From Rhodobiaceae bacterium (GTDB lineage: Bacteria > Pseudomonadota > Alphaproteobacteria > Parvibaculales > Parvibaculaceae), in contig JAAWWE010000003.1 in NCBI GenBank assembly GCA_021404525.1, forward strand, positions 1-64,000: a DNA stretch of 64,000 nucleotides, in the 5' to 3' direction. Each line of letters begins with the position of its first letter. Position 1 is the first letter of the stretch. Of the stretch, positions 48,101-62,247 are shown one piece after another. The position numbers and the translations under genes are program-made. The notes beneath the pieces were generated by a model. The model made no database searches and was not told the DNA's origin. It saw only the letters and a program-made list of their open reading frames with translations.

Positions 48101-48441
48101 GTCAGACATCAAAATGGGTCGACATAGGTAAGGTCTCCGATGTGCCTGTTAGAGGCTCGCGTCTTATCCAGATTTCTGGCGGCGGGATCGCGCTCTTTCG
48201 GACAAGCGATGATCAATTCTTCGCAATTGATGATCGCTGCCCCCATCTGGGTGGTCCTTTGTCACAAGGTATTGTGCACGATCAGCGTGTGACCTGCCCT
48301 CTGCACAATCTGGTCATTGACCTCCCAAGCGGTGAAGGGCAGGGACCGGATGGCGGATGTGTGCGAACCTACCCTGTCGACGTGCAGGGAGACAGGATCC
48401 TGCTGGACATCAGCAAACTCACGCGCCAGAAGGTCGCCTGA
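48097..48441 (+). CDS. nirD: nitrite reductase small subunit NirD, Rieske type
   Basis: 114 residues. Unlike some NirD proteins that have lost cluster ligands, all four Rieske residues are present: C48, H50 (CPH) and C67, H70 (CPLH). Start overlaps nirB stop by 4 bp; ends 2 bp before nasA. It forms part of the NirBD complex. Confidence 0.93.
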   Translation: MSQTSKWVDIGKVSDVPVRGSRLIQISGGGIALFRTSDDQFFAIDDRCPHLGGPLSQGIVHDQRVTCPLHNLVIDLPSGEGQGPDGGCVRTYPVDVQGDRILLDISKLTRQKVA

Positions 48442-48443
48442 GT

Positions 48444-51104
48444 ATGCTGGCGGGCGCGACCGTGAAAACCACCTGTCCCTATTGCGGTGTTGGATGCGGT
48501 GTCATTGCTCGACAAAATGACGATGGCGGGGTGGAAATTTCCGGTGACCCGGATCACCCGGCGAATTTCGGCAGACTGTGCTCCAAAGGCTCCGCCTTAG
48601 GGGACACGTTTTCCTTAGATGATCGATTATTGACCCCGAGAATCCATGGGCAGATGTCGGACTGGAACGAAGCGTTCGATAGAGTGGCGCGAGGGTTTTC
48701 AGAAACCGTGCGCGCCCACGGTCCTGACTCGGTTGCCCTCTATGTGTCCGGACAGTTGTTGACCGAGGACTATTATGTCGCCAACAAGCTGATGAAGGGG
48801 TTTATCGGTTCGGCTAATATCGACACCAATTCCCGGCTCTGCATGGCATCGTCAGTCGCGGGCCATAAACGCGCCTTTGGCAGTGATACCGTACCCGGCG
48901 CATATAAGGATTTGGAGGAAGCGGATCTCGTTGTGCTCGTCGGGTCCAATTTTGCTTGGTGTCACCCGGTCTTGTTCCAGCGGCTGGCAGCGGCAAAGCA
49001 GGACCGCGGCACCCGGGTCATTGTGATTGACCCGAGGGAGACGGCCACGACTGAGCTGGCCGACATGCACTTGCCGCTAGACCCGGGTTCAGATGTCGCA
49101 CTGTTCAATGGTCTGCTTGGATATCTTGCGGAAACAGGTGCGATCGACCACGCCTTTGTCTCCAACCATACCGAAGGTTTTGATATTGCACTGGAGAGTG
49201 CAAAGGCTATGAGCCTCTCTGGTGTTGCTGAAGCAACGAGTCTTGATCCAATCCGCCTTACCCAATTCTATCGGGCGTTCAGTGAGACCAAGAAGGTCGT
49301 GACGGTCTATTCCCAGGGCGTCAATCAGTCGAGTGTGGGGACGGACAAGGTCAACGCGATCATCAACTGTCATCTCGCCACCGGGCGGATCGGCCGCGAA
49401 GGCATGGGACCTTTTTCCATTACCGGTCAGCCAAACGCCATGGGTGGTCGGGAAGTTGGTGGGTTGGCAAACCAACTTGCCGCTCACATGAGTTTTGAAG
49501 ACCCCGACCATCGAGACATTGTCGCACGGTTTTGGGAAGCGCCGAACCTGGCGGCGGCGCCTGGCTTGAAAGCGGTTGATCTGTTTGATCGGGTTGAAAG
49601 TGGTCAGATCAAGGCGCTGTGGGTGATGGCGACCAACCCAGCGGCAAGCATGCCTGATGCGGACCGGGTGTCCGCTGCAATTAAAGCCTGCCCCTTTGTT
49701 GTCGTCTCCGATGTGACCGATACAACGAAAACCGCATCGCTCGCCCATGTCCTACTTCCAGCAATGGGGTGGGGAGAAAAAGATGGGACCGTCACAAATT
49801 CGGAACGCCGAATATCACGGCAGCGATCCTTTGTGGCGGGCGCTGGATCATCCAAGCCGGACTGGTGGATCATCTCTCAGGTGGCGCTACGTATGGGCTT
49901 CACTGGTTTTTCCTACGAGAAACCCGCAGAGATTTTTCGCGAGCATGCGGCTTTGTCTGCGTTTGAGAATGACGGGACGCGCGACTTCGATTTGTCGGGT
50001 CTCAAGAGCCTGAGCGATATCGGGTACGAAGAGCTGACCCCTGTTCAATGGCCGGTGAGTGAGAAAGCAGAACAGGGGACACAACGTCTTTTTGATCAAG
50101 GCGGCTTTTTTACAAAAACGAAGAAAGCAAATTTTGTTTCTGTTGTGCATAAGCCACCGGCGAGCAATACCAGTACTCAATACCCGTTGGTCCTGAATTC
50201 CGGGCGCATACGAGATCAGTGGCACACCATGACGCGAACGGGGCAGTCGGCCCGCCTGTCATCGCATATTGCGGAGCCCTTTGTTGAGGTGCACCCAGAT
50301 GATGCATTGTCGTTCGGTATAGCGGTTGGCGATGTGGTGCGCGTCGCAAGTGCCCGCGGGAGCATTCTTGCAAAAGCGTCGGTTACCGCCCGTCAGTCCA
50401 GGGGCACCGTCTTCGTGCCTATTCACTGGACCGCGCCCTATGCGCCCTGTGCGGAAGTCGATGCTTTGGTGGGCTCCAACACAGATCCCATATCCGGTCA
50501 GCCGGAGCTCAAATACACTCCCGTCAGGATCGAGCGGGCGGTCATGCGGTGGCACGCCTTCCTTGTCTCTGATTGTAAGCCAGACCTGGCTTCTTTTCCT
50601 TATTGGGCGTTAGCGCGCACCAAAAGCGGCTGGCGCGCAGAGGTTGCAGGAGATGATCCTATTTCTTCGTTCCCCGAAGGTCTGAAAGGTCTTCTCAGCA
50701 ATGGTCAGTCGGCTGAGGTGGAAACATTCTTCTACGAGGATGGATTGGGTGGCGGAAGTCGCATGCAATGCAATGCTGGAAAACTCACCCATGCCGTCTT
50801 CTGGTCGCCTAAGCCTGTCGAAGTTGCTCGTGCCTGGCTGGTTGATCAGTTGGGTCGAGAGCAAGACCTGAAGTCGCGATATGCGCTTCTGGCAGGGCGC
50901 GCTGGCGCCGACCAGCCAGACAAGGGAGCCATAGTCTGTTCCTGTTTTGAAGTGGGCGCGAACCAGATCACCCGGGCGATGCGTGACGGAGCGGATTCGA
51001 TTGATGCAGTTGGTGTTGCATTGAATGCGGGGACTAATTGTGGCTCCTGCCGCTCCGAGATTGGTCGCCTTCTGGTGGTAACAGAGATGAAAGAGGCGGT
51101 GTAA
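48444..51104 (+). CDS. nasA: assimilatory nitrate reductase catalytic subunit NasA
   Basis: 886 residues. The N-terminal [4Fe-4S] cluster uses C11, C14, C18 and C46 (CPYCGVGC, RLCSKG), followed by the molybdopterin guanine dinucleotide domains (NSRLCMASSVAG, GREVGGLANQLAAHM). A BFD-like [2Fe-2S] domain is fused at the C terminus (VCSCFEVG, GTNCGSCRSEIGR), characteristic of the NasA type with direct ferredoxin-like electron entry. Start ATG 48444 avoids overlap with nirD. It reduces nitrate to nitrite, which NirBD takes on. Confidence 0.95.
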   Translation: MLAGATVKTTCPYCGVGCGVIARQNDDGGVEISGDPDHPANFGRLCSKGSALGDTFSLDDRLLTPRIHGQMSDWNEAFDRVARGFSETVRAHGPDSVALYVSGQLLTEDYYVANKLMKGFIGSANIDTNSRLCMASSVAGHKRAFGSDTVPGAYKDLEEADLVVLVGSNFAWCHPVLFQRLAAAKQDRGTRVIVIDPRETATTELADMHLPLDPGSDVALFNGLLGYLAETGAIDHAFVSNHTEGFDIALESAKAMSLSGVAEATSLDPIRLTQFYRAFSETKKVVTVYSQGVNQSSVGTDKVNAIINCHLATGRIGREGMGPFSITGQPNAMGGREVGGLANQLAAHMSFEDPDHRDIVARFWEAPNLAAAPGLKAVDLFDRVESGQIKALWVMATNPAASMPDADRVSAAIKACPFVVVSDVTDTTKTASLAHVLLPAMGWGEKDGTVTNSERRISRQRSFVAGAGSSKPDWWIISQVALRMGFTGFSYEKPAEIFREHAALSAFENDGTRDFDLSGLKSLSDIGYEELTPVQWPVSEKAEQGTQRLFDQGGFFTKTKKANFVSVVHKPPASNTSTQYPLVLNSGRIRDQWHTMTRTGQSARLSSHIAEPFVEVHPDDALSFGIAVGDVVRVASARGSILAKASVTARQSRGTVFVPIHWTAPYAPCAEVDALVGSNTDPISGQPELKYTPVRIERAVMRWHAFLVSDCKPDLASFPYWALARTKSGWRAEVAGDDPISSFPEGLKGLLSNGQSAEVETFFYEDGLGGGSRMQCNAGKLTHAVFWSPKPVEVARAWLVDQLGREQDLKSRYALLAGRAGADQPDKGAIVCSCFEVGANQITRAMRDGADSIDAVGVALNAGTNCGSCRSEIGRLLVVTEMKEAV

Positions 51105-51105
51105 G

Positions 51106-51882
51106 ATGACGAAAGTATCCCTTGTTGGCGCGGGGCCGGGCGACCCGGACCTTCTGACGATCAAAGCGCTGAAGGTGTTGAAGCAAGCAGACGTCGTTCT
51201 TTTTGATGATCTGGTGAGCGAAGAGGTTCTTGATGCGATTGGGCCAGGGCCCACATTGATTTCTGTGGGTAAGCGGGCTGGGCGCCCCAGTTGGGCGCAG
51301 GGGGATATCAATGATCTGATGGTTAGATTGGTCAGAGAGGGGCGGGCAGTCGCCCGCTTGAAGTCCGGGGACCCGTCTATATTTGGACGATCCGGCGAGG
51401 AAATTTCTGCGCTGGCTGCTGTCGGCATTGAGGTGTCAGTGGTGCCGGGCATAACCGCCGCCTCAGCAATGGCCGCTGGTCTCCAAGTGTCCCTGACCCA
51501 TCGCGCCTGCGCACAGTCCGTGCGCTTTGTCACTGCGCATGGTGCGAATGGGCAGCTTCCCGCCCATCTAGATTGGGCTGGTTTGGCGAATGATGAGACC
51601 ACTTTGATCGTCTATATGGGCGGGCGCATGGGCGGAGAGTTTGCTTCACGTCTCATCGCGCATGGCCGGTCCGGGCAGACTCCCGTTGTCGTTGTTAAAA
51701 ACGTTTCTCGCGATAGCCAGGAGGTGGTCGCGGGGAGACTGGCGGAACTCGATCAATTGCTTGCCCTGTGCCGTGCCGAAGGGCCGGTGACGATTGCGAT
51801 AGGAGAGGTGTTTATGGGCCATGCTCTTTCTGGCAGCGTTGGGTCTCAAGAGACGTTGGAAGGCAGGGCGGCGCGCCTTTAG
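51106..51882 (+). CDS. cobA: uroporphyrinogen-III C-methyltransferase (siroheme synthesis)
   Basis: 258 residues, single-domain SUMT. N terminus SLVGAGPGDPDLLTIKALKVL, with LKSGDPSIFGRSGEE and PGITAASAMAAGL, are standard motifs. It methylates uroporphyrinogen III at C2 and C7 to give precorrin-2 for siroheme, the NirB cofactor. Begins 2 bp after nasA, so it is part of the nitrate operon. The oxidase/ferrochelatase domain of CysG is absent and must be elsewhere. Confidence 0.94.
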   Translation: MTKVSLVGAGPGDPDLLTIKALKVLKQADVVLFDDLVSEEVLDAIGPGPTLISVGKRAGRPSWAQGDINDLMVRLVREGRAVARLKSGDPSIFGRSGEEISALAAVGIEVSVVPGITAASAMAAGLQVSLTHRACAQSVRFVTAHGANGQLPAHLDWAGLANDETTLIVYMGGRMGGEFASRLIAHGRSGQTPVVVVKNVSRDSQEVVAGRLAELDQLLALCRAEGPVTIAIGEVFMGHALSGSVGSQETLEGRAARL

Positions 51883-52351
51883 TCGGGCTCACCACTACCA
51901 TTGCGCTGGGTGGGTAGAATGGTAATGCGAGCGAAATCTCCTTAGCTGCTCCCATTTCTTGTTTGCGATTTTGCCTACCTGCACATGGATGAGGTAACGG
52001 CTAATGACTGTTTTGCGGCCTCATCCAAGGGTCTTCAGTCCAGCAGGAGGCGTGTTGGTTCCAAAAGCGCTTCGCGACCGGTCATCAGGGTGAGAGATGA
52101 ACTTCTAAGGGATGCTGTTGCTTACCCTGGAAGGTGGCGCTTGTGCCGTCTACCTTTATGCGCGGAAGTAACAATCGACCTGCATCGGTTTCCCCCAATG
52201 GGCTCGTGCGTAAAAAATGCAGAGCTCATTTAGCAGGCATCTCAGAAAGTTGGTGACTAAATCGCAGGCAGTGACACGCCTTGTCCGTCGGTTATTGAAC
52301 GAAATGCAGCACAAAGGAACTGGCACGCTTCTTGAGTTGTAGTGGGCATTA
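51883..52351. other. promoter-proximal spacer before the guanidine operon
   Basis: About 470 bp between the siroheme gene and the guanidine-I riboswitch. No convincing coding region; an 82-codon frame at 51985-52233 has no family match and no ribosome site. A degenerate tgcg-N6-tgca site lies near 52206-52220 and a sigma-54 type promoter at 52321-52336, about 115 bp apart. Confidence 0.5.
52321..52336 (+). promoter_or_regulatory. sigma-54 type promoter of guanidine operon
   Basis: TGGCACGCTTCTTGAG: consensus -24 block TGGCACG and TTG at -12, but the GC dinucleotide is GA. The predicted start falls near 52346, just before the riboswitch aptamer at 52352, which supports it. Weaker than the three nitrate promoters. 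Confidence 0.55.
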
Positions 52352-52470
52352 GCAGCTAGGGTTCCGGCTGGTGTCCGATCACATCGGATTAATCGGTGAC
52401 TGGTCCGAGAGCTGCGGCTCTGTCGGTTTACAGCGGCAGGGTACACGGCGGGAAAAAAGCCCGGGAGGTC
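52352..52470 (+). promoter_or_regulatory. guanidine-I riboswitch (ykkC class)
   Basis: Contains in order all conserved blocks of the ykkC aptamer: ctagggttccg (52356-52366), gactggtccgagag (52398-52411) and acacggcgggaaaaaagccc (52443-52462) followed by gggagg. These match the guanidine-I class used in B. subtilis ykkC. Downstream, the aptamer's cacggcgg can alternatively pair with ccgccgtg (52499-52506), and a later hairpin hides the ribosome site. It would switch on the guanidine importer when guanidine is present. Confidence 0.95.
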
Positions 52471-52507
52471 TAGCGCGTTTGGTAAAACAGCGTCCGTACC
52501 GCCGTGA

Positions 52508-52536
52508 CCACCAGACTCCAAGACCGACAATGGAGT
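52508..52536 (+). promoter_or_regulatory. hairpin sequestering the ribosome site of the guanidine importer gene
   Basis: accag-actcc pairs with ggagt-a-ctggt immediately before ATG 52544, burying the ggag Shine-Dalgarno. It lies after the aptamer's alternative partner ccgccgtg, giving a plausible translational expression platform rather than a terminator; no T run was found. Confidence 0.6.
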
Positions 52537-52543
52537 ACTGGTT

Positions 52544-53617
52544 ATGAAACTATTTTCCAAAACACTGGTCGCTGCGGCGACTTCACTCAGTCTTGTCTTT
52601 GCTGGCGCGACTTCTGTGAGCGCAGAAGAGAAGACAGAGTTTAAACTTGCCTGGTCAATTTATGTTGGCTGGATGCCGTGGGGATGGGCCGCGGACCAAG
52701 GGATCGTCGATAAGTGGGCGGATAAATACGGTATCGACATCGAGGTCGTGCAGTTCAATGACTATATCGAATCGATCAACCAATATACGGCTGGTGCCTT
52801 TGATGGTGTGACGGCGACAAACATGGATACGCTTGCCATTCCATCGGTCGGCGGTGTGGACACCACAGCGCTGATCGTCGGTGACTTTTCGAATGGCAAT
52901 GATGCTCTGATCTTGAAAGGCGCTGACTCGCTTGACGCGGTTCTGGGGCAAAACGTCAATCTCGTGGAGCTTTCGGTGTCGCATTATCTCCTTGCCCGCG
53001 CGCTTGAGACACTTGGTAAGGCAGAAAAAGACGTCACTGTGGTCAACACATCTGACGCAGATATGATTGCTGCTTATCAGACCGATGATGTGACAGCCGT
53101 TGTGACCTGGAACCCGCTGGTCGCGGAGATCCTTGAGATTCCTGGCGCAAACAAAGTGTTCGACTCTTCTGACATTCCAGGCGAGATCATGGACCTGACC
53201 GTGGTGAATACAGAGACGCTTGCCGACAACCCTGCCTTCGGGAAAGCGCTTGCAGGCGCCTGGTATGAAACCATGTCGATCATGCTGTCGGATACGCCTG
53301 AAGGAGCTGCGGCCCGCGCCGCCATGGGCGAAGCATCTGGGACCGATCTTGCTGGATACGATATGCAGCTTGCCTCGACGCAGATGTTTGCAAGTGCTGC
53401 TGATGCGGTGACATTCACCACCTCTGACAGTGTCACCTCCACCATGGAATCTGTCCGGACCTTCCTCTTTGAACGAGGCCTGCTGGGAGAAGGGGCATCG
53501 AGCCCTGACATTGTTGGGATTGCCTTTCCAGACGGCTCGGTTCTTGGCGACGAAGGAAATGTGAAGTTCCGCTTCAATGCCGACTATATGAGCATGGCGG
53601 CAGACGGTTCTCTGTGA
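52544..53617 (+). CDS. guanidine-operon ABC transporter binding protein
   Basis: 357 residues. Sec signal peptide (LVAAATSLSLVFAGATSVSA|EEK). The remainder has the nitrate/taurine-type (NMT1/THI5-like) two-lobe fold: FKLAWSIYVGWMPWGWAADQGI, DGVTATNMDTLAIPS and AVVTWNPLVAEI. Placement behind a guanidine-I riboswitch and before a permease and ATPase indicates a guanidine (or derived guanidinium) ligand; this is inference. The mature protein is periplasmic. Confidence 0.85.
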   Translation: MKLFSKTLVAAATSLSLVFAGATSVSAEEKTEFKLAWSIYVGWMPWGWAADQGIVDKWADKYGIDIEVVQFNDYIESINQYTAGAFDGVTATNMDTLAIPSVGGVDTTALIVGDFSNGNDALILKGADSLDAVLGQNVNLVELSVSHYLLARALETLGKAEKDVTVVNTSDADMIAAYQTDDVTAVVTWNPLVAEILEIPGANKVFDSSDIPGEIMDLTVVNTETLADNPAFGKALAGAWYETMSIMLSDTPEGAAARAAMGEASGTDLAGYDMQLASTQMFASAADAVTFTTSDSVTSTMESVRTFLFERGLLGEGASSPDIVGIAFPDGSVLGDEGNVKFRFNADYMSMAADGSL

Positions 53618-53676
53618 TCCGTCACCGGTGACCCTTCCGCAACAGATCCACACATCGAGGAAAGATAGGCACACGT

Positions 53677-54516
53677 ATGGCTCTGTCACGTAGCGGACGG
53701 CTCATCAACAAACATCCTGGACCGGCGGCTGGGCGGCTGCTCGCAATGCTTCCCTTTGCAGTTTTATTGCTCGCCTATGCTGTCGGTTCAGACATTAGGC
53801 TGTCTGAAAACCCCAACGACAAATTGCTGCCAAGTTTTGCCTCGCTGGCGGACGCTGTCGAGCGCATGGCGTTCGAGCCTGATAAGCGCACCGGCGATTA
53901 TCTTCTGTGGGTTGATACGGTCGCCAGCCTGTCGCGTCTTGGGGGTGGCGTGTTGCTGGCGACGCTTCTTGGCGCCGGCATTGGCATTACGGTTGGTCTC
54001 ATTCCCTACGCCAGATGGACCATGTCAGCCTTTATCGCCGTCTTTGCGATGATCCCGCCTTTGGCGGTGCTGCCAATCCTCTTTATTACCTTTGGCCTCG
54101 GTGAGACGTCCAAAGTTGCACTCATCGTCTTCGGGATTGCGCCTTTCATGATGCGGGATCTTGCCCTTCGGGTTGCAGAGCTTCCCTCAGAGCAGATCGT
54201 CAAGGCGCAGACACTTGGTGCTTCCACCTGGCACATTGCCTGGCGCGTCGTTCTGCCCCAGATGATGCCACGGATCATTGACGCGCTGCGTCTCTCGCTT
54301 GGCTCTGCCTGGTTGTTTTTGATCGCCGCAGAGGCCATCGCTGCCCAAAGCGGCCTCGGCTACCGAATTTTCCTGCTGCGGCGCTATCTGGCGATGGATG
54401 TGATCCTTCCTTATGTCTTCTGGATCACGCTCCTGGCCGTTGTCTTTGATTTCATCCTGCGACGCTATCAGGTCTGGGCCTATCCCTGGTTTGCCTCAGA
54501 GAGGGCGCAATCATGA
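53677..54516 (+). CDS. guanidine-operon ABC transporter permease
   Basis: 279 residues with about six helices. The EAA loop is recognisable near KAQTLGASTWHIAWRVVLPQMMP. The first helix (LAMLPFAVLLLAYAVG) follows a basic N terminus. Its stop overlaps the ATPase start by ATGA. Belongs to the nitrate/sulfonate-type ABC importer group. Confidence 0.9.
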   Translation: MALSRSGRLINKHPGPAAGRLLAMLPFAVLLLAYAVGSDIRLSENPNDKLLPSFASLADAVERMAFEPDKRTGDYLLWVDTVASLSRLGGGVLLATLLGAGIGITVGLIPYARWTMSAFIAVFAMIPPLAVLPILFITFGLGETSKVALIVFGIAPFMMRDLALRVAELPSEQIVKAQTLGASTWHIAWRVVLPQMMPRIIDALRLSLGSAWLFLIAAEAIAAQSGLGYRIFLLRRYLAMDVILPYVFWITLLAVVFDFILRRYQVWAYPWFASERAQS

Positions 54517-55274
54517 CCGCAGTCAGTGTGCGCAATCTCTGGATGGAATATGGAAACCAGATCGTGCTGGAGCGCATCGACTTTGATGTCGCCCCTCATT
54601 CTTTCGTTTCGCTGGTGGGACCATCGGGCTGTGGGAAGTCGACCTTCCTTCGCCTGTTGCTCAGTCAGGAGCACGCAACACGAGGCGAAATTCTTGTTGA
54701 TGGCGCGCCGCTGGCGCCCAACCCGGAGCCTGACCGGGGGGTTGTCTTTCAGAAATATTCGGTCTTTCCGCACCTCACCGCCTTAGACAATGTGATGCTC
54801 GGCCTTGAGTTTGAGCGTGGTGGCTTGTCTGGTCGTCTTCATGGTCGCGCCCGGCGCCGTGCCCGGGAGGAGGCCATGGAATATCTTGAAGGTGTCGGGC
54901 TTGGCGACGCGGCGTCCAAATATCCTTCGGCACTTTCTGGGGGTATGCAGCAACGGCTTGCGATTGCTCAGGCCTTGATCAAAAAACCGCGCATTCTTTT
55001 GCTTGATGAGCCCTTTGGCGCACTCGACCCCGGCATCCGTTCAGAGGTGCATGACCTCATGTTGCGTTTGTGGTGGGAGACCAAGATGACCGTGTTCATG
55101 GTGACTCATGATTTGCGGGAAGCTTTTTATCTTGGCACGCGGGTGATTGCGTTTGATCGGGTGCGCAAGAGAGAAGAAGAGCTCGAGCGGTATGGTGCGA
55201 CGATTGCGTTTGATACGCCGTCCGATCCTGCACCGTTCGTAAAGGAGTTGGCCGCGAAGGATGTGGCGGCATGA
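54513..55274 (+). CDS. guanidine-operon ABC transporter ATPase
   Basis: 253 residues. Walker A GPSGCGKST, Q-loop VFQKYSVFPHL, signature LSGGMQQR, Walker B ILLLDEPFGALD and H-loop MVTHDLREAF are all intact. It energises the importer formed with the two preceding proteins. The coding end is followed directly by the guanidine-II hairpins. Confidence 0.93.
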   Translation: MTAVSVRNLWMEYGNQIVLERIDFDVAPHSFVSLVGPSGCGKSTFLRLLLSQEHATRGEILVDGAPLAPNPEPDRGVVFQKYSVFPHLTALDNVMLGLEFERGGLSGRLHGRARRRAREEAMEYLEGVGLGDAASKYPSALSGGMQQRLAIAQALIKKPRILLLDEPFGALDPGIRSEVHDLMLRLWWETKMTVFMVTHDLREAFYLGTRVIAFDRVRKREEELERYGATIAFDTPSDPAPFVKELAAKDVAA

Positions 55275-55285
55275 TGTTTGTTTCT

Positions 55286-55348
55286 CGCCGGGACGGCCCG
55301 GCGGCTGGTTGTGAGCCAGCCCATGAGACATGGCCCAGGACGACCTGG
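55286..55348 (+). promoter_or_regulatory. guanidine-II riboswitch (mini-ykkC class)
   Basis: Two hairpins with the diagnostic ACGR tetraloops: cgccggg-ACGG-cccggcg (55286-55303) and ccagg-ACGA-cctgg (55335-55348), with a linker that folds into a small stem (ggctgg / ccagcc). In this class two hairpins bind two guanidine molecules cooperatively and free the ribosome site. It sits between the ATPase gene and the first DUF1989 gene, whose ribosome site is at 55388. Confidence 0.85.
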
Positions 55349-55397
55349 TGCGTAGAGAGGCGGCAAAAAGACCGGCCTCTGCCAGATGGAGATGTCC

Positions 55398-56135
55398 ATG
55401 AAAGTCGACAAAGAGACCCATTTTAGCGAGGTGTTGCCTGGAGGCGCGCATTGGTCAATGACCATGAAGGCGGGGCTTGCCCTACGACTGACCGACCTCG
55501 AAGGGGGCGCCAATGTGGGGATGCTGTTTTACAACCCGCTCAATCCACTTGAACGGTACAACGCGCCAGATAGCCTTAAGTGCCAACACACGTTCAAGCT
55601 GACGAAGGGCAACTGCCTCTATTCGGACATGGGGCGCATTTTTTGTTCCATTGTTGAAGATAGTCTTGGCTGGCATGACACCGTCTGCGGAAATAGTACC
55701 CGTCAGATCATCGAGGATCGATGGGGCGCGACAAGCTACCAAGCCGCCCGCAATGAGCGGACGCAAAACGGGTTAGACAGTTTTCTCGTTGAAGCTGCCA
55801 AATATGGTCTCGGGAAAAAGGATCTCGCGGCCAATGTGAATTGGTTCAGCAAGGTAGCACCGAGTGCCGAGGGAGACCTGGCGTTTTGTTCTGATGCCTC
55901 TGCGGCGGGCGCTCAGGTAACGCTCCGTTTTGAGATGGACACGCTGGTGCTTTTTCATACGTGCCCCCATCCCCTGGATCCATCGCCGACCTATGAGCCG
56001 AAGCCTGTGAAGTTCGACGTCTTTGCCGCCGACCCCGTGGGCGAAGATGACTATTGCCGCACGTTCCGACCGGAAAATGGCCGGGGCTTTGAGAACACGG
56101 AGTTTTTCCAGCAAACATCCCCTGCGACTGCGTAA
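55398..56135 (+). CDS. DUF1989 protein, carboxyguanidine-deiminase subunit
   Basis: About 245 residues. Start ATG 55398 follows ggag at 55388; ATGs at 55386 and 55392 are in frame. It contains the DUF1989 pattern ALRLTDLEGGANVGMLFYNPLNPLERYN, here cited by its key GANVGMLFYN and NPLERYN parts, and FCSIVEDSLGWHDTVCG with Cys and His likely binding a metal. In operons with a guanidine carboxylase, two DUF1989 proteins act together to convert carboxyguanidine to allophanate. Which of CgdA/CgdB it is I cannot decide. Confidence 0.85.
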   Translation: MKVDKETHFSEVLPGGAHWSMTMKAGLALRLTDLEGGANVGMLFYNPLNPLERYNAPDSLKCQHTFKLTKGNCLYSDMGRIFCSIVEDSLGWHDTVCGNSTRQIIEDRWGATSYQAARNERTQNGLDSFLVEAAKYGLGKKDLAANVNWFSKVAPSAEGDLAFCSDASAAGAQVTLRFEMDTLVLFHTCPHPLDPSPTYEPKPVKFDVFAADPVGEDDYCRTFRPENGRGFENTEFFQQTSPATA

Positions 56136-56150: not shown

Positions 56151-56801
56151 ATGATCAAAGAAAGTGACCTTGATGTTGCTGCCGCTGCTTATCGTGAAAT
56201 TGTCGAGGCGGGTGCTTATTGGATGCACACCGTCAAGAAGGGTGAGGTTTTCCGCATCTTAGACCTTGAGGGAAACCAGGCGGCCGATACGCTGTTCTAC
56301 AACGCGCATGACCCGGCCGAGCGTTATAGCGCGGTCGATACCATCCGAGAGCAGGGCAATGTCTACCTGACGGCCGGGACGAAGCTCCGCTCGACGGAGG
56401 GCGCCGTTATGCTTGAGATTGTTGCCGATACGTGTGGGCGTCATGACACGTTGGGGGGTGCCTGTGCCACAGAGTCCAACACAGTGCGCTATGCCCACGA
56501 CACAAAATGCATGCATGCCTGTCGGGACAGCTGGCTGCTCGCGGTCGCGGAAAACGATCAATATGGCATGTCTAAGCGGGACATCACTCACAACATCAAT
56601 TTCTTCATGAATGTCCCTGTGACGCCGGAAGGTGGATTGACCTTCGAGGATGGCATCAGTGCGCCGGGCAAATATGTCGAAATGCGCGCTGAGATGGATG
56701 TCCTCGTGCTGATTTCCAATTGCCCGCAGCTGAACAATCCCTGCAATGCCTATAACCCGACCCCGATCGAAGTTCTGATCTGGGATGGCGTGTCTGACTG
56801 A
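56151..56801 (+). CDS. DUF1989 protein, second carboxyguanidine-deiminase subunit
   Basis: 216 residues. Similar phrases: [25 protein letters not shown] and [26 protein letters not shown], each with Cys/His residues suited to a metal site. It starts 15 bp after the first subunit and the pair overlaps in fold. Partner in the deiminase step between guanidine carboxylation and allophanate hydrolysis (established for this gene arrangement, not shown here). Confidence 0.85.
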
Positions 56802-56831: not shown

Positions 56832-59800
56832 ATGTTCAAAACAGTTCTTGTCGCCAATCGAGGCGAAATCGCATGCCGGATTATCAAATCACTCAAAGCC
56901 CTGGGCCTGAAATCCGTTGCCATCTATTCAGAAGCGGACCGGCATTCACGGCATGTGCGCGAGGCTGATGAAGCCTATTGTGTGGGCCCGGCCGCTGTCT
57001 CTGACAGCTATCTTAACATCGAGAACATTTTGGTGGCCTGCGAGAAAAGCGGCGCGGAGGCGGTGCACCCGGGCTACGGGTTCTTAAGTGAAAGCGCTGA
57101 CTTTGCTGAACGCCTTGCTGAAAAGGGCATCACCTTTATTGGGCCCAAGCCCAAACAGCTGCGTGAGTTTGGGACAAAACACACGGCGCGTGCACTTGCA
57201 GAGAAAGCGGGTGTTCCCCTCTTGCCAGGGACAGGCTTGCTGTCTGATCTTGCTGAGGCGCTCTCTGCGGCTGCAAAGATTGGCTACCCCGTCATGTTGA
57301 AGAGTACCGCTGGTGGAGGCGGTATTGGACTCCAGTTGTGTGCGTCGGATGCTGAACTGGAGAAAGCCTTCGATACGGTTCGTCGCATGGGCGAGAATAA
57401 TTTTGGCAATGCAGGCGTTTTTCTTGAGAAATTTGTCAGCGAAGCCCGTCACATTGAGGTGCAAATATTTGGTGATGGTGCGGGCAACGTTGTCACGCTT
57501 GGAGAGCGGGATTGTTCGCTTCAGCGCCGCAATCAGAAGGTTGTCGAGGAAACGCCCGCGCCCGGTCTCTCTGAAACGCAGCGTGACGCTCTTTCTGATG
57601 CGGCGCGGCGTCTGGGAGAGCTGGTTGAATATGCCTCAGCTGGCACCGTCGAATTCATCTACGGCACGCAAGAGGGCAAATTCTACTTCTTGGAGGTGAA
57701 CACCCGGCTGCAGGTGGAGCATGGTGTGACCGAAGAGGTCTTCGGCGTCGACTTGGTTGAATGGATGGTCAAGCAGGCAGGCGGCACGATGCACCCCCTC
57801 AAAGAGTTTGATCTGGTGTCGAGCGGCGCGGCCATTGAGGTGCGGATCAATGCGGAAGATCCCGCCCGCAACTTCCAACCCAGCGCTGGTCGCCTGACAG
57901 ATGTGACGTTTGACAAGAATGCCAGGGTTGATGGTTGGATTGAGACAGGGACGGTGATCACCTCCCATTATGACTCTCTGATCGCCAAGCTTATTGTCAA
58001 AGGGCGTGATAGAGAGGCGGCTTTGGCGCGCCTTCGCGGCGCACTTTCGTGCACCTCCCTTTATGGCATTGAGACCAATCTGGATTATCTCGCGACCATT
58101 GTGGACACGGACATGTTCTCAGAGGGGCGTGTGAGCACAAAGGTGCTGGCAGATTTTGACTATCAACCGCCGCGTATAGAGGTTCTATCGCCGGGTGCGC
58201 AGACAAGTGTGCAGGATTTTCCGGGTCGTATTGGATATTGGGCGGTGGGTGTGCCGCCAAGCGGGCCCATGGATGACTTCTCCTTTCAACTTGCAAACTG
58301 TCTGGTGGGGAATCCGAGCACTGCAGCAGGGCTAGAATGCGCGCTGTCCGGTCCCAGCCTGCGCTTCAATGCGCCGGCGGTGATTGCGCTTACGGGCGCT
58401 GAGATGACGGCGACACTTGATGACCGTCCGGTGCCTTATTGGGAACCTGTCCAGGTTTCGGCTGGGGAGACATTGCATTTGGGGGCGATCGACGGTGCCG
58501 GCAACCGTACCTATCTTGCGGTCCGCCATGGGCTGGATGTGCCCCTGCATCTTGGGAGCCGTTCGACTTTTATTCTTGGCGGGTTTGGCGGTCATGGAAC
58601 GGGGCCGTTGAAGACAGGTGACGTCCTGCGCATCAATCGCGATGGGGCAAGCGATGCGCCGCTGGCGACAGTGGAGCCTCAGAACCGTCCGGCGCTTACC
58701 AAGGAGTGGGAGATCGGTGTTCTTTATGGCCCGCATGGCGCGCCAGACTTTTTCACCGAAAAGGATATCGAGACTCTCTTTCAGTCCTCCTATGAAGTGC
58801 ATTTCAATAGTGCGCGAACCGGGGTGCGGTTGATTGGGCCCAAGCCGGACTGGGCCCGTGAAGATGGTGGTGAGGCGGGTCTCCACCCATCCAACATTCA
58901 TGATAATGCCTATGCGATTGGCACAATCGACTTCACCGGCGATATGCCCATCATTCTGGGCCCCGATGGTCCAAGCCTTGGCGGGTTCGTGTGTCCGGCA
59001 ACCATCGCAGATGCAGAGCGCTGGAAAATGGGGCAGCTTCGTCCCGGCGACAAGGTGCGGTTTGTTTCCCTGTCCGCCGACGAGGCCGCGTTGCTGCAGG
59101 AGGAACGGCGGCAGGTCCTTCGAGCGCCGCAGACTGGTTCAGGTACGCGCGGTGTGTCCCCGGCAAAAGCGCCAACGACAACGAGGCGCCCCTCGGCCAT
59201 TCTGGCGCGTGGCCAGACGAATGGCATCGATATTGTCTATCGACGCGCCGGCGACTCCTATTTGTTGGTCGAGATGGGCGCGCTGGTCCTGGATCTGAAG
59301 TTACGTTTGCAGGTGACGGCGTTGATGTCCTGGTTGGAAGCAGAAGCGCCCGACGGCATTGTCGACCTCACACCAGGTATTCGTTCCTTACAGGTGCATT
59401 ATGACCCGACATGCCTCTCGACGACGCGATTGCTGGATATGTTGCGCCGGGCCGAAGGTGAAATGGAGCGCGCTGAAGATCTCACCGTGCCGAGCCGTGT
59501 GGTGCATTTGCCGCTTAGCTGGAGAGATGAGCAGGCGGAACTTGCTATGCGCAAGTATCAAGAGCTTGTCCGGGAGGATGCACCTTGGTGTCCGTCTAAT
59601 GTTGAGTTTATCCGTCGCATAAACGGCCTGCCGGATGAGCAAGCGGTCAAAGACATTATCTTTGATGCAGATTACCTCGTGCTGGGTTTGGGCGATGTCT
59701 ATTTGGGGGCCCCTGTTGCCACGCCTATCGATCCTCGCCACCGGCTCGTTACGACAAAATACAACCCTGCGCGTACCTGGACGCCTGAGAATGCGGTGGG

Positions 59801-60455
59801 TATCGGCGGCGCTTATATGTGTATCTATGGCATGGAAGGACCCGGCGGGTACCAACTGTTTGGCCGTACACTACAGGTTTGGAGTACCTGGCAACAAAGA
59901 GGGAGTTTTGCAGCCGGTAAACCGTGGCTTCTCCGTTTCTTTGACCGGATCAAATTTTTCCCTGTCTCACCGGAAGAATTGACTGAAGCACGGGACGCTT
60001 TTCCGCATGGGGCCTACAAAATTGATGTCGAAGAAGACAGTTTCAACCTCGCACAGCATGACGCCATGTTGGCAGACGAACAGGAGTCCATTCTCAAATT
60101 CAAAGAAACACAGCAGTCTGCTTTTGAAGCTGAACGGCAACGATGGCGCGATCAGGGCATAAATGCAGAGGTTATTGAGGAAGCTTTTGCGCTGGAGGAG
60201 CCTGACATCAATATTCCCGATGGGGGCTCTGTGGTGGAAGCTGCTCTTCCAGGCAGCGTTTGGAAGGTTTTGGTGGAGCCGGGACAGTCCGTTGAAGCGG
60301 GCGAGGCTGTCATCATCCTGGAGAGCATGAAGATGGAGCTTGAGGTTGCCGCGCCGCAAGGCGGCGTTGTGCATGAAGTGCTCTGTAAACCAGGCCAAAC
60401 GGTTGATCCGGGACAGGCTGTGCTGGTGATGGCCGGCGTCGCGGAGGCAGGTTGA
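56832..60455 (+). CDS. urea/guanidine carboxylase, biotin-dependent
   Basis: 1207 residues: biotin carboxylase (residues 1-450: LVANRGEIACRIIKSL, ATP-grasp GGGGIGLQL), carboxyltransferase of the KipA/KipI (AHS) type (about 455-1080), and C-terminal biotinyl domain with the modified Lys near 1167 (ESMKMELEV). It carboxylates guanidine or urea with HCO3- and ATP. The riboswitch context and two DUF1989 partners point to guanidine; the substrate-deciding residue was not tested here. Confidence 0.93.
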   Translation: MFKTVLVANRGEIACRIIKSLKALGLKSVAIYSEADRHSRHVREADEAYCVGPAAVSDSYLNIENILVACEKSGAEAVHPGYGFLSESADFAERLAEKGITFIGPKPKQLREFGTKHTARALAEKAGVPLLPGTGLLSDLAEALSAAAKIGYPVMLKSTAGGGGIGLQLCASDAELEKAFDTVRRMGENNFGNAGVFLEKFVSEARHIEVQIFGDGAGNVVTLGERDCSLQRRNQKVVEETPAPGLSETQRDALSDAARRLGELVEYASAGTVEFIYGTQEGKFYFLEVNTRLQVEHGVTEEVFGVDLVEWMVKQAGGTMHPLKEFDLVSSGAAIEVRINAEDPARNFQPSAGRLTDVTFDKNARVDGWIETGTVITSHYDSLIAKLIVKGRDREAALARLRGALSCTSLYGIETNLDYLATIVDTDMFSEGRVSTKVLADFDYQPPRIEVLSPGAQTSVQDFPGRIGYWAVGVPPSGPMDDFSFQLANCLVGNPSTAAGLECALSGPSLRFNAPAVIALTGAEMTATLDDRPVPYWEPVQVSAGETLHLGAIDGAGNRTYLAVRHGLDVPLHLGSRSTFILGGFGGHGTGPLKTGDVLRINRDGASDAPLATVEPQNRPALTKEWEIGVLYGPHGAPDFFTEKDIETLFQSSYEVHFNSARTGVRLIGPKPDWAREDGGEAGLHPSNIHDNAYAIGTIDFTGDMPIILGPDGPSLGGFVCPATIADAERWKMGQLRPGDKVRFVSLSADEAALLQEERRQVLRAPQTGSGTRGVSPAKAPTTTRRPSAILARGQTNGIDIVYRRAGDSYLLVEMGALVLDLKLRLQVTALMSWLEAEAPDGIVDLTPGIRSLQVHYDPTCLSTTRLLDMLRRAEGEMERAEDLTVPSRVVHLPLSWRDEQAELAMRKYQELVREDAPWCPSNVEFIRRINGLPDEQAVKDIIFDADYLVLGLGDVYLGAPVATPIDPRHRLVTTKYNPARTWTPENAVGIGGAYMCIYGMEGPGGYQLFGRTLQVWSTWQQRGSFAAGKPWLLRFFDRIKFFPVSPEELTEARDAFPHGAYKIDVEEDSFNLAQHDAMLADEQESILKFKETQQSAFEAERQRWRDQGINAEVIEEAFALEEPDINIPDGGSVVEAALPGSVWKVLVEPGQSVEAGEAVIILESMKMELEVAAPQGGVVHEVLCKPGQTVDPGQAVLVMAGVAEAG

Positions 60456-60456
60456 T

Positions 60457-62247
60457 ATGGATGAGGTTGATCTCCAAATTGATGCTTTGCGTGAAGCCTA
60501 TGCTCAACGCGCACTAGACCCCGAACGGGTGATTGAAACGGTCTATGATCGAATTGAGGCATGCGCCGACAAAGCCGTATGGATTTCGCTGGTACCCCGC
60601 GCTGACGCGTTGGCGGCGGCTGTTGCTCTCAAGGACAGAGACGGGTCTGACAGGACACTCCCGCTTTATGGCATTCCCTTTGCCGTCAAAGACAATATTG
60701 ACTGCAAGGACCTTCCGACAACGGCGGGTTGCCCGTCTTATGCGTACTCGCCGGCACAGGACGCAACAGTCGTGGCACGGCTGCGCGCCGCAGGGGCGAT
60801 CCTGATCGGGAAAACGAATTTGGACCAATTTGCCACCGGGCTTGTTGGCACGCGGTCGCCCTATGGAGCGCCGCGCTCAGTCTTTAACGAGGACTATATT
60901 TCCGGTGGATCGAGCAGTGGCTCGGCCGTTGCCGTGGCGCGGGGTCTTGTTTCCTTTGCGCTCGGTACGGACACAGCTGGGTCCGGTCGGGTGCCGGCCG
61001 CCTTCAACAATCTGGTCGGGTATAAGCCAACGTTAGGACTGGGAAGTACCAGAGGCGTGGTGCCTGCCTGTCGCACATTGGATTGTGTGAGCGTGTTTAC
61101 GGCGTCCTGCGGTGATGCGGCGATCGTTAAGGGTGTTATCGAAGGGTTCGATGCAGGCGATCCTTTTTCCCGACGGTCCGTTGTTCGACCCCTCGCTGGA
61201 AAGACCTTTCAATTTGGCGTCCTTGATGATCAGAGCCGCGACTTTAAAGGTGATGCCGGTGTTGCGGCGCTCTATGACCAAGCTGTTGAGAATATGCGTG
61301 AGCTTGGCGGCACGCCGGTCCCGATTGATTACACGCCGTTTCGAAAGGCTGCCGAGCTCTTATATGCGGGACCGTGGGTTGCCGAACGATATGCAGCTGT
61401 CGGGACCCATATTGAAACAGGTGGCGATGACATTGATCCCACGGTCGCCGGCATTGTGCTTGGGGGAAAAGTGGCGTCGGCGAGTGATGCTTTTCGAGGA
61501 CAGTATAGACTTGCCGACTACCGGCGGGTGATTGATGAGATCTGGCGCCGAATTGATCTGCTGCTTCTGCCCACAACGCCGACGACCTATCGCATTGACG
61601 AGATAGCGACAGACCCTGTGGGTCTTAACGCCAACCTTGGGCTCTATACCAATTTCGTCAACCTCACTGATTGTGCAGCGGTCGCGGTTCCTGCCGGGTT
61701 TCGAGAGGGGTTGCCAGCGGGGGTCACGCTTATTGGCCCGGCGTTCACAGATGATGGATTGCTCTGGCTTGGCGACAGGCTGCACAAGACAATTGGAGAA
61801 GGATTGAAAGCGGGCGCGACCGACCATCTGCTCTCTTCCTACCCTGTTGAATCGGTACAGGGGGTTGAGCTTGCTGTCGTTGGTGCACATTTGTCGGACC
61901 AACCACTTAATGGGCAATTGACGGATCGCGGCGCCAAACTTGTTCAGTCTACGCAGACTGCTGCAACCTATGGCCTGTTCGCTCTTGCTGACACGGCACC
62001 GCCAAAACCTGGATTGGTGCGTCGGGTGGAAGGCGGCGGCCCGATCGACGTTGAAGTCTGGTCTTTGTCAGAAGAGGCGTTTGGTTCTTTCACCGCCGAG
62101 GTGCCTGCGCCTCTCGCGATTGGCAATGTGGAACTTAGTGACGGACGGTGGGTAAAGGGATTTGTTTGTGAGCCTGTTGGGTTGGAAGGTGCCCGTGACA
62201 TTACGGCATTTGGTGGTTGGCGTGCTTATCTGACAGCGTGTGCCTAG
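60457..62247 (+). CDS. atzF: allophanate hydrolase
   Basis: 596 residues. N-terminal amidase with the Ser-cisSer-Lys triad: K78 (GIPFAVKDN), the SGGSSSGS loop (149-156) and S176 (TDTAGSGRVP). The C-terminal ~150 residues form the second domain that completes decarboxylation in full-length AtzF. It turns allophanate into two ammonia and two CO2 overall. Begins 1 bp after the carboxylase stop, last gene of the operon and of unit 2. Confidence 0.92.
   Translation: MDEVDLQIDALREAYAQRALDPERVIETVYDRIEACADKAVWISLVPRADALAAAVALKDRDGSDRTLPLYGIPFAVKDNIDCKDLPTTAGCPSYAYSPAQDATVVARLRAAGAILIGKTNLDQFATGLVGTRSPYGAPRSVFNEDYISGGSSSGSAVAVARGLVSFALGTDTAGSGRVPAAFNNLVGYKPTLGLGSTRGVVPACRTLDCVSVFTASCGDAAIVKGVIEGFDAGDPFSRRSVVRPLAGKTFQFGVLDDQSRDFKGDAGVAALYDQAVENMRELGGTPVPIDYTPFRKAAELLYAGPWVAERYAAVGTHIETGGDDIDPTVAGIVLGGKVASASDAFRGQYRLADYRRVIDEIWRRIDLLLLPTTPTTYRIDEIATDPVGLNANLGLYTNFVNLTDCAAVAVPAGFREGLPAGVTLIGPAFTDDGLLWLGDRLHKTIGEGLKAGATDHLLSSYPVESVQGVELAVVGAHLSDQPLNGQLTDRGAKLVQSTQTAATYGLFALADTAPPKPGLVRRVEGGGPIDVEVWSLSEEAFGSFTAEVPAPLAIGNVELSDGRWVKGFVCEPVGLEGARDITAFGGWRAYLTACA

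Follow-up and report, generated by a model that had tools for sequence, protein, structure and literature searches.

A predicted guanidine operon with guanidine-I and guanidine-II riboswitches in series, and direct tandems of the two classes in relatives

A 64,000-nucleotide (nt) stretch of DNA from a Rhodobiaceae bacterium (assembly GCA_021404525.1, contig JAAWWE010000003.1, forward-strand positions 1-64,000; hereafter the window) very likely carries an operon for the use of guanidine as a nitrogen source under two unrelated guanidine ON riboswitches, with guanidine-I ahead of an ABC importer and guanidine-II between the importer and the gene for UAAP1. This split arrangement is already published, and what is new is the occurrence of direct guanidine-I/guanidine-II tandems in relatives. 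In Azospirillum and Parvibaculaceae, the two aptamers probably form a true tandem leader, class I then class II on one start codon, in which a CCUCC segment would converge both on a single Shine-Dalgarno (SD) sequence as an ON/ON system, the window being an opened form with the importer in between. The seven genes of the window's run (three for the importer, UAAP1, UAAP2, carboxylase and allophanate hydrolase) all lie on the + strand and are separated by gaps of at most 59 bases, except for one of 123 bases (measured to the likely UAAP1 start at 55398) that holds guanidine-II, and a single transcript presumably spans them. The features are as follows (MFE, minimum free energy).

52345..52469, + strand: guanidine-I (ykkC) riboswitch aptamer (RF00442, 80.1 bits; gathering score 63)
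52467..52542, + strand: putative translational expression platform of guanidine-I (SD hairpin plus competing helix)
52544..53617, + strand: ABC importer substrate-binding protein (TIGR03427, 534 bits; cut-off 333.9)
53677..54516, + strand: ABC importer permease (best match a TauC-type permease, under the curated cut-off)
54513..55274, + strand: ABC importer ATPase (ABC ATPase families, all shown under curated cut-offs)
55287..55302, + strand: guanidine-II hairpin P1, GCCGGG-ACGG-CCCGGC
55303..55333, + strand: 31-nt linker containing an additional hairpin, GGCTGG...CCAGCC (MFE -13.6 kcal/mol, a stability reached by 3 of 200 shuffles)
55334..55349, + strand: guanidine-II hairpin P2, CCAGG-ACGA-CCTGG
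55386..56135 (likely start 55398), + strand: UAAP1 (TIGR03425, 332 bits)
56151..56801, + strand: UAAP2 (TIGR03424, 353 bits)
56832..60455, + strand: guanidine carboxylase, annotated type urea carboxylase (TIGR02712, 1849 bits)
60457..62247, + strand: allophanate hydrolase (TIGR02713, 788 bits)

Each switch would most likely control how the genes immediately after it are translated, with the ribosome site masked without guanidine and unmasked when guanidine binds; in guanidine-II, the two ACGR loops would kiss around two guanidiniums. Guanidine binding and the ON direction of both switches, like the expression platform of guanidine-II, are features that we infer.

The two riboswitch elements and the genes behind them

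The guanidine-II element at 55287-55349 consists of two GC-rich stems with ACGR tetraloops (ACGG and ACGA). Model R1, which uses 39 guanidine-II pairs and leaves out the window and the other members of its clade (L039, L040, L041 and L121), finds this element at 42.1 bits, with E-values of 9.2e-9 (window) and 6.0e-7 (whole genome); no other match at E<=0.1 was reported for the genome. A GG-ACGR-CC hairpin pair lies directly 5' of UAAP1 in all 26 loci fetched from the window's family, the window included; these represent the 25 genomes with a UAAP1 match among the 37 family genomes searched, together with one (G062) that was reached via guanidine-I. The pair was absent from two loci of other families that were fetched alongside (L060 and L065). 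Across 27 aligned sequences, 97.8% of cells in the guanidine-II stems are paired and 6 of 12 pairs feature double changes, with 34 double-change cells compared with 9.7 in shuffles (0/500 shuffles as high) and a covariation score of 0.352 compared with 0.142. A weaker measure of covariation, the presence of further pair types, was reached by 38 of 500 shuffles. The selection rule for the aligned rows asked for GGACGRCC loops and four or more stem pairs, so the invariance of loops and inner pairs is there by construction, while the outer pairs were free to vary.

Several results weigh against this assignment. RF01068, the Rfam model proposed as a check in the preliminary description, misses the window's element, where its best score is 16.6 bits against a cut-off of 32 with hairpin 1 placed as P2; genome-wide it returns two fragments (16.6 and 13.6 bits), and it has no match at E<=1 in the clade relatives L039, L040, L041 and L121. 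The miss is most likely due to the 31-nt linker with its extra hairpin, although linker length does not explain it fully, because a pair with a 15-nt linker (L042, 25.8 bits) also stays below the cut-off, as does one with a 14-nt linker (L043). Four of the 26 family pairs do pass it (L045, L046, L049 and L050; 33.0-37.9 bits). Along with the RF01068 failure, the lack of excess of the bare GGACGRCC pair pattern over a reversed control in family genomes would fit chance GC-rich hairpins or an unrelated structure, a reading that we consider very improbable given the R1 match, the covariation, the constant position in all 26 loci and the finding of no stem-checked hairpin pair in any of 150 simulated windows. 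On these same grounds the mini-ykkC element of the preliminary description stands despite the RF01068 miss, and we take 55287-55349, as judged from its sequence, to be a real guanidine-II element. It resembles the RF01068 class in its two GC-rich ACGR hairpins and covarying stems, and differs from it in the 31-nt hairpin-bearing linker and the score below the Rfam cut-off. The bare GGACGRCC pair pattern was itself rejected as a detector, as it gave many unrelated matches in the family.

We read this element as a hairpin-bearing linker variant of guanidine-II. The great majority of guanidine-II spacers are at least 13 nt long, which allows loop-loop docking (available text of PMC5486947). The window's spacer is 31 nt long, with 12 nt outside the main linker hairpin; in the MFE fold another, smaller hairpin forms as well, leaving 1 nt outside. 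Part of a long linker folds into a hairpin, so a normal effective length could be kept. Among 44 distinct pairs, all 28 linkers of at least 27 nt form a hairpin at an MFE of -3 kcal/mol or lower, as do 7 of the 16 shorter ones, and 12-17 nt are left outside the MFE hairpin in 19 of the 28 long linkers, near the spacer of the class. Shuffle controls gave a mixed result for the linker hairpins: the number of shuffles (of 200) that reached the same stability ranged from 3 to 163. Elements of this kind are missed by the Rfam model in the window's clade. Pairing of the linker with the start region was considered as the guanidine-II switch and rejected, as its duplex energy was no better than that of shuffled linkers in all four species (206-280 of 500 as low), a result that weighs against our overall reading.

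More guanidine-II-like pairs were seen in Parvibaculaceae, 5' of small membrane proteins (MAW-YLL...) that are presumably SMR-type gdx/SugE guanidine exporters (L189, G018:C14; L190, G015:C1; L191, G036:C22; L193, G031:C117). L193 features three GGACGRCC or near-GGACGRCC motifs in a row.

The guanidine-I (ykkC) aptamer that had been noted ahead of the importer was confirmed by RF00442 well above its gathering score; at E<=0.001, this model has matches in 25 of 40 family genomes. Behind the aptamer, a hairpin at 52510-52542 (ACCAGACTCCA with TGGAGTACTGGT) would mask the SD that serves the first gene of the importer; a competing helix, formed by GGTCT/GTTTGG and CCAGAC/AGACC, would free it. In five sequences of the window's clade, 89.1% of cells in the SD hairpin are paired, with double changes in 4 of 11 pairs, while the competing helix is paired in 98.2% of cells. 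Three of the four double changes come from L041, which is doubtfully aligned there, leaving one clean case (GC to AU in L121), and covariation is absent from the competing helix; both points count against a translational platform. No terminator-like site was found on the + strand between the aptamer and the importer gene, and the terminator and promoter scans gave numbers close to shuffle expectation. Together, these data give modest support to translational control by guanidine-I in the window.

UAAP1 is likely a subunit of carboxyguanidine deiminase (the CgdA/B pair), with UAAP2 as the other subunit; we assume that UAAP1 corresponds to CgdB. In a sequence alignment, residue D700 of the window's carboxylase aligns with N1330 of the urea amidolyase 5i8i, which we take to be the deciding active-site residue. 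An Asp at the deciding position marks a guanidine carboxylase and an Asn a urea carboxylase (available text of PMC12186494), and the window's enzyme thus carries the residue of a guanidine carboxylase. The combination of importer, UAAP1/UAAP2, Asp-type carboxylase and allophanate hydrolase therefore points to genes for guanidine import and breakdown.

Direct guanidine-I/guanidine-II tandems

In three of the 26 family loci (G014, G020 and G027), no importer gene separates the two switches, and the guanidine-II pair stands between guanidine-I and UAAP1. A pattern scan of genomes of 84,980 species, with 57-87 nt between motifs, returned 12 matches, eight of which feature an Rfam guanidine-I directly before UAAP1: Azospirillum TSO35-2, A. 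endophyticum, B506, A. lipoferum, A. canadense, 412522, Parvibaculum sp. CPC32 and a metagenome-assembled genome of Hyphomicrobiales. The other four, from Streptomyces (three) and Kitasatospora (one), have no guanidine-I and were set aside as chance matches (L073, L074, L076 and L078). A shorter tandem gap of 20-50 nt was found in none of 385 alphaproteobacterial genomes. On plasmid pAB510b of Azospirillum sp. B510, a tandem precedes annotated UAAP1, UAAP2 and urea carboxylase genes, scoring 79.1 bits for guanidine-I (Rfam) and 47.5 bits for guanidine-II (model R2); G479 has the same scores and position, and the two were counted once. In total, both aptamers share one untranslated leader in 11 distinct genomes (the eight scan matches, among which G014 and G027 are counted, B510, G020 and G486), with 68-78 nt from the end of the Rfam guanidine-I match to P1. 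By this definition the window does not contain a tandem, as three genes lie between its switches.

Model R2 was trained on 33 split loci and no tandems, so its support for guanidine-II in the tandems is independent of them. R2 finds the pair in all 11 tandem loci at 42.5-52 bits, compared with a best score of 21.1 bits in 15 other loci scanned, L128 aside. RF01068 stays below its cut-off in every tandem locus scanned; with relaxed settings on six of these, it gave 24.9-25.2 bits in two and no match at E<=1 in four. In a tree of 52 UAAP1 proteins, from which L072 (its UAAP1 cut by the locus end), L153, L155, L157 and duplicates were left out, the tandem label needs four changes, at least three of them forced by well supported branches.

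Different forms were also apparent within a sample of the Azospirillum family, where 22 of 79 genomes have guanidine-I. Six of these carry the tandem, nine have an importer gene next to guanidine-I (these loci being read as far as this neighbouring gene) and five have UAAP1 without a guanidine-II pair. The remaining two are G497, where UAAP1 is present with a single remaining hairpin, and G494, which lacks the pair and carries guanidine-I twice. Just behind guanidine-I, at the place of guanidine-II, each of these two loci (L151 in G497 and L152 in G494) features one hairpin, with loops ACCA and ACAG, respectively; guanidine-II seems to have been lost here, and in L151 a deletion from one hairpin to the other is perhaps the cause. 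As the same two switches stand as a direct tandem in relatives, the importer cassette appears to have been gained or lost between them.

The CCUCC segment between the aptamers could pair either with GGAGG just behind guanidine-I or with the SD behind guanidine-II. In the consensus fold of eight Azospirillum tandem leaders, a loop around guanidine-II is closed by pairing between the UAAP1 SD region and a UUCCUCC segment located between the aptamers. Single folds place CCUCC on the SD region in six of the eight and on GGAGG behind guanidine-I in two (L072 and L075). These leaders are nearly identical there, so covariation is little informative.

SAM-V is an OFF switch. The guanidine tandems of Azospirillum and Parvibaculaceae resemble SAM-II/SAM-V leaders in that two aptamer classes for one ligand share one leader; in the SAM leaders, the first aptamer controls a terminator and the second the ribosome site (available text of PMC9481103). 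For the guanidine tandem we expect ON/ON control, in contrast to the SAM pair, in which the ligand switches genes off. In the same article, as far as its available text goes, Sherlock et al. 2022 report that a dedicated search for guanidine-II in tandem with other classes gave no example, and that none of the four guanidine classes was seen in such a tandem (PMC9481103). No later report of a guanidine tandem was present among the matches listed in the open-access literature, a search that leaves subscription papers mostly uncovered. The tandems therefore represent a compact natural system, in which two unrelated aptamers for one ligand serve one start codon and relatives have the split or guanidine-I-only form, and these three forms make the question of why two sensors for one ligand are stacked directly testable.

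Split operons in other genomes and the use of two switches

The order given in the preliminary description, with two guanidine classes in series, one ahead of the importer genes and the other ahead of the breakdown genes, holds up, but the arrangement is not unusual as had been thought: it is in print for Vreelandella boliviensis and three enterobacteria, and it is present in half of the guanidine-I genomes in our sample. Here, 28 of the 385 alphaproteobacterial genomes have guanidine-I (all counts being specific to this sample), and in 14 of these, guanidine-I is followed first by two or three importer genes, next by guanidine-II and last by UAAP1. The 14 are the window, G009, G010 and 11 of 25 further genomes fetched; the 11 include L128, which the strict hairpin rule missed and R2 scores at 47.2 bits. 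UAAP1 follows guanidine-I without guanidine-II in four of the 28, an importer is present with no UAAP1 within the stretch fetched in six, and a contig end prevents judgement in four. Among the 26 family loci, two or three importer genes separate the switches in 21, only the substrate-binding gene does so in two (G007 and G011) and none in three. The 21 include G035, whose guanidine-I lies at the end of another contig, and G036, in which no guanidine-I was found and the contig begins just before the importer. In two loci with guanidine-I alone before UAAP1 (L124 in G361 and L133 in G282), a hairpin (GAGGAGGC / GCCTCTTC) and a matching SD were seen by eye, which suggests an anti-SD logic as in the tandems.

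As described in the available text on V. boliviensis (PMC12508155; Sinn et al. 2025), guanidine-I precedes an operon and guanidine-II lies inside it, with dissociation constants (KD) for guanidine of 44 and 93 uM, respectively. The window shares its initial guanidine-I, internal guanidine-II, importer, cgdA/B, carboxylase and allophanate hydrolase with that operon, whereas the V. boliviensis guanidine-II lies between cgdB and gca and its guanidine-I is presumed to be transcriptional (PMC12508155); the window's guanidine-I looks, tentatively, translational. Guanidine-II stands before UAAP1 in the window, which would therefore place the deiminase genes under class II. Class I for the importer and class II downstream are likewise described for Raoultella terrigena, Erwinia rhapontici and Klebsiella michiganensis, but with the deiminase genes on the class I side (available text of PMC12186494). 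The difference between the window and the published operons is thus one of boundary, guanidine-II being placed before UAAP1 and not before the carboxylase, and the window alone is a further member of a published arrangement.

Separate guanidine thresholds for uptake and breakdown, as originally suggested, are possible. The two KDs of V. boliviensis are about twofold apart, and the clearer contrast is that class II binds methylguanidine (PMC12508155). The switches might accordingly differ in ligand range and not in threshold, guanidine-I sensing guanidine only and guanidine-II also methylguanidine or another guanidino compound, so that the breakdown genes would answer to more ligands. In the tested range, the V. 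boliviensis guanidine-I showed no methylguanidine binding, and its guanidine-II has KDs of 93 uM for guanidine and 83 uM for methylguanidine (PMC12508155). That operon also carries the methylguanidine genes mgdH and mgdL (PMC12508155), but no such genes were recognised among the seven proteins scanned in the window, and we are somewhat doubtful of this explanation.

Tightness of control is a plausible use of two switches, if one to which we give slightly less than even odds: two ON switches stacked on one message could be pseudo-cooperative or give bi-level control, the second stopping leak past the first. The I-then-II order in each locus with both elements on one contig would fit this, and the tandem leaders set both switches ahead of one start codon. 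On the other hand, approximately 2.8 kb separates the switches in the window, where each has a start site of its own, and the four genomes with UAAP1 behind guanidine-I alone also argue against a need for stacking. Two guanidine ON switches, each acting most likely on the genes directly behind it, remain our preferred description of the window, whatever the use of having both.

The operon may have moved by horizontal transfer, as the window's UAAP1 is nearer to Azospirillum proteins (65-67% for full-length matches) than to those of most of its own family (36-42% for genera g2 and g5). Directly upstream, positions 48441-51882 encode a uroporphyrinogen-III C-methyltransferase and, with scores under the curated cut-offs, a molybdopterin oxidoreductase of either the assimilatory nitrate reductase or the formate dehydrogenase type, which perhaps reflects a nitrogen assimilation neighbourhood around the operon.

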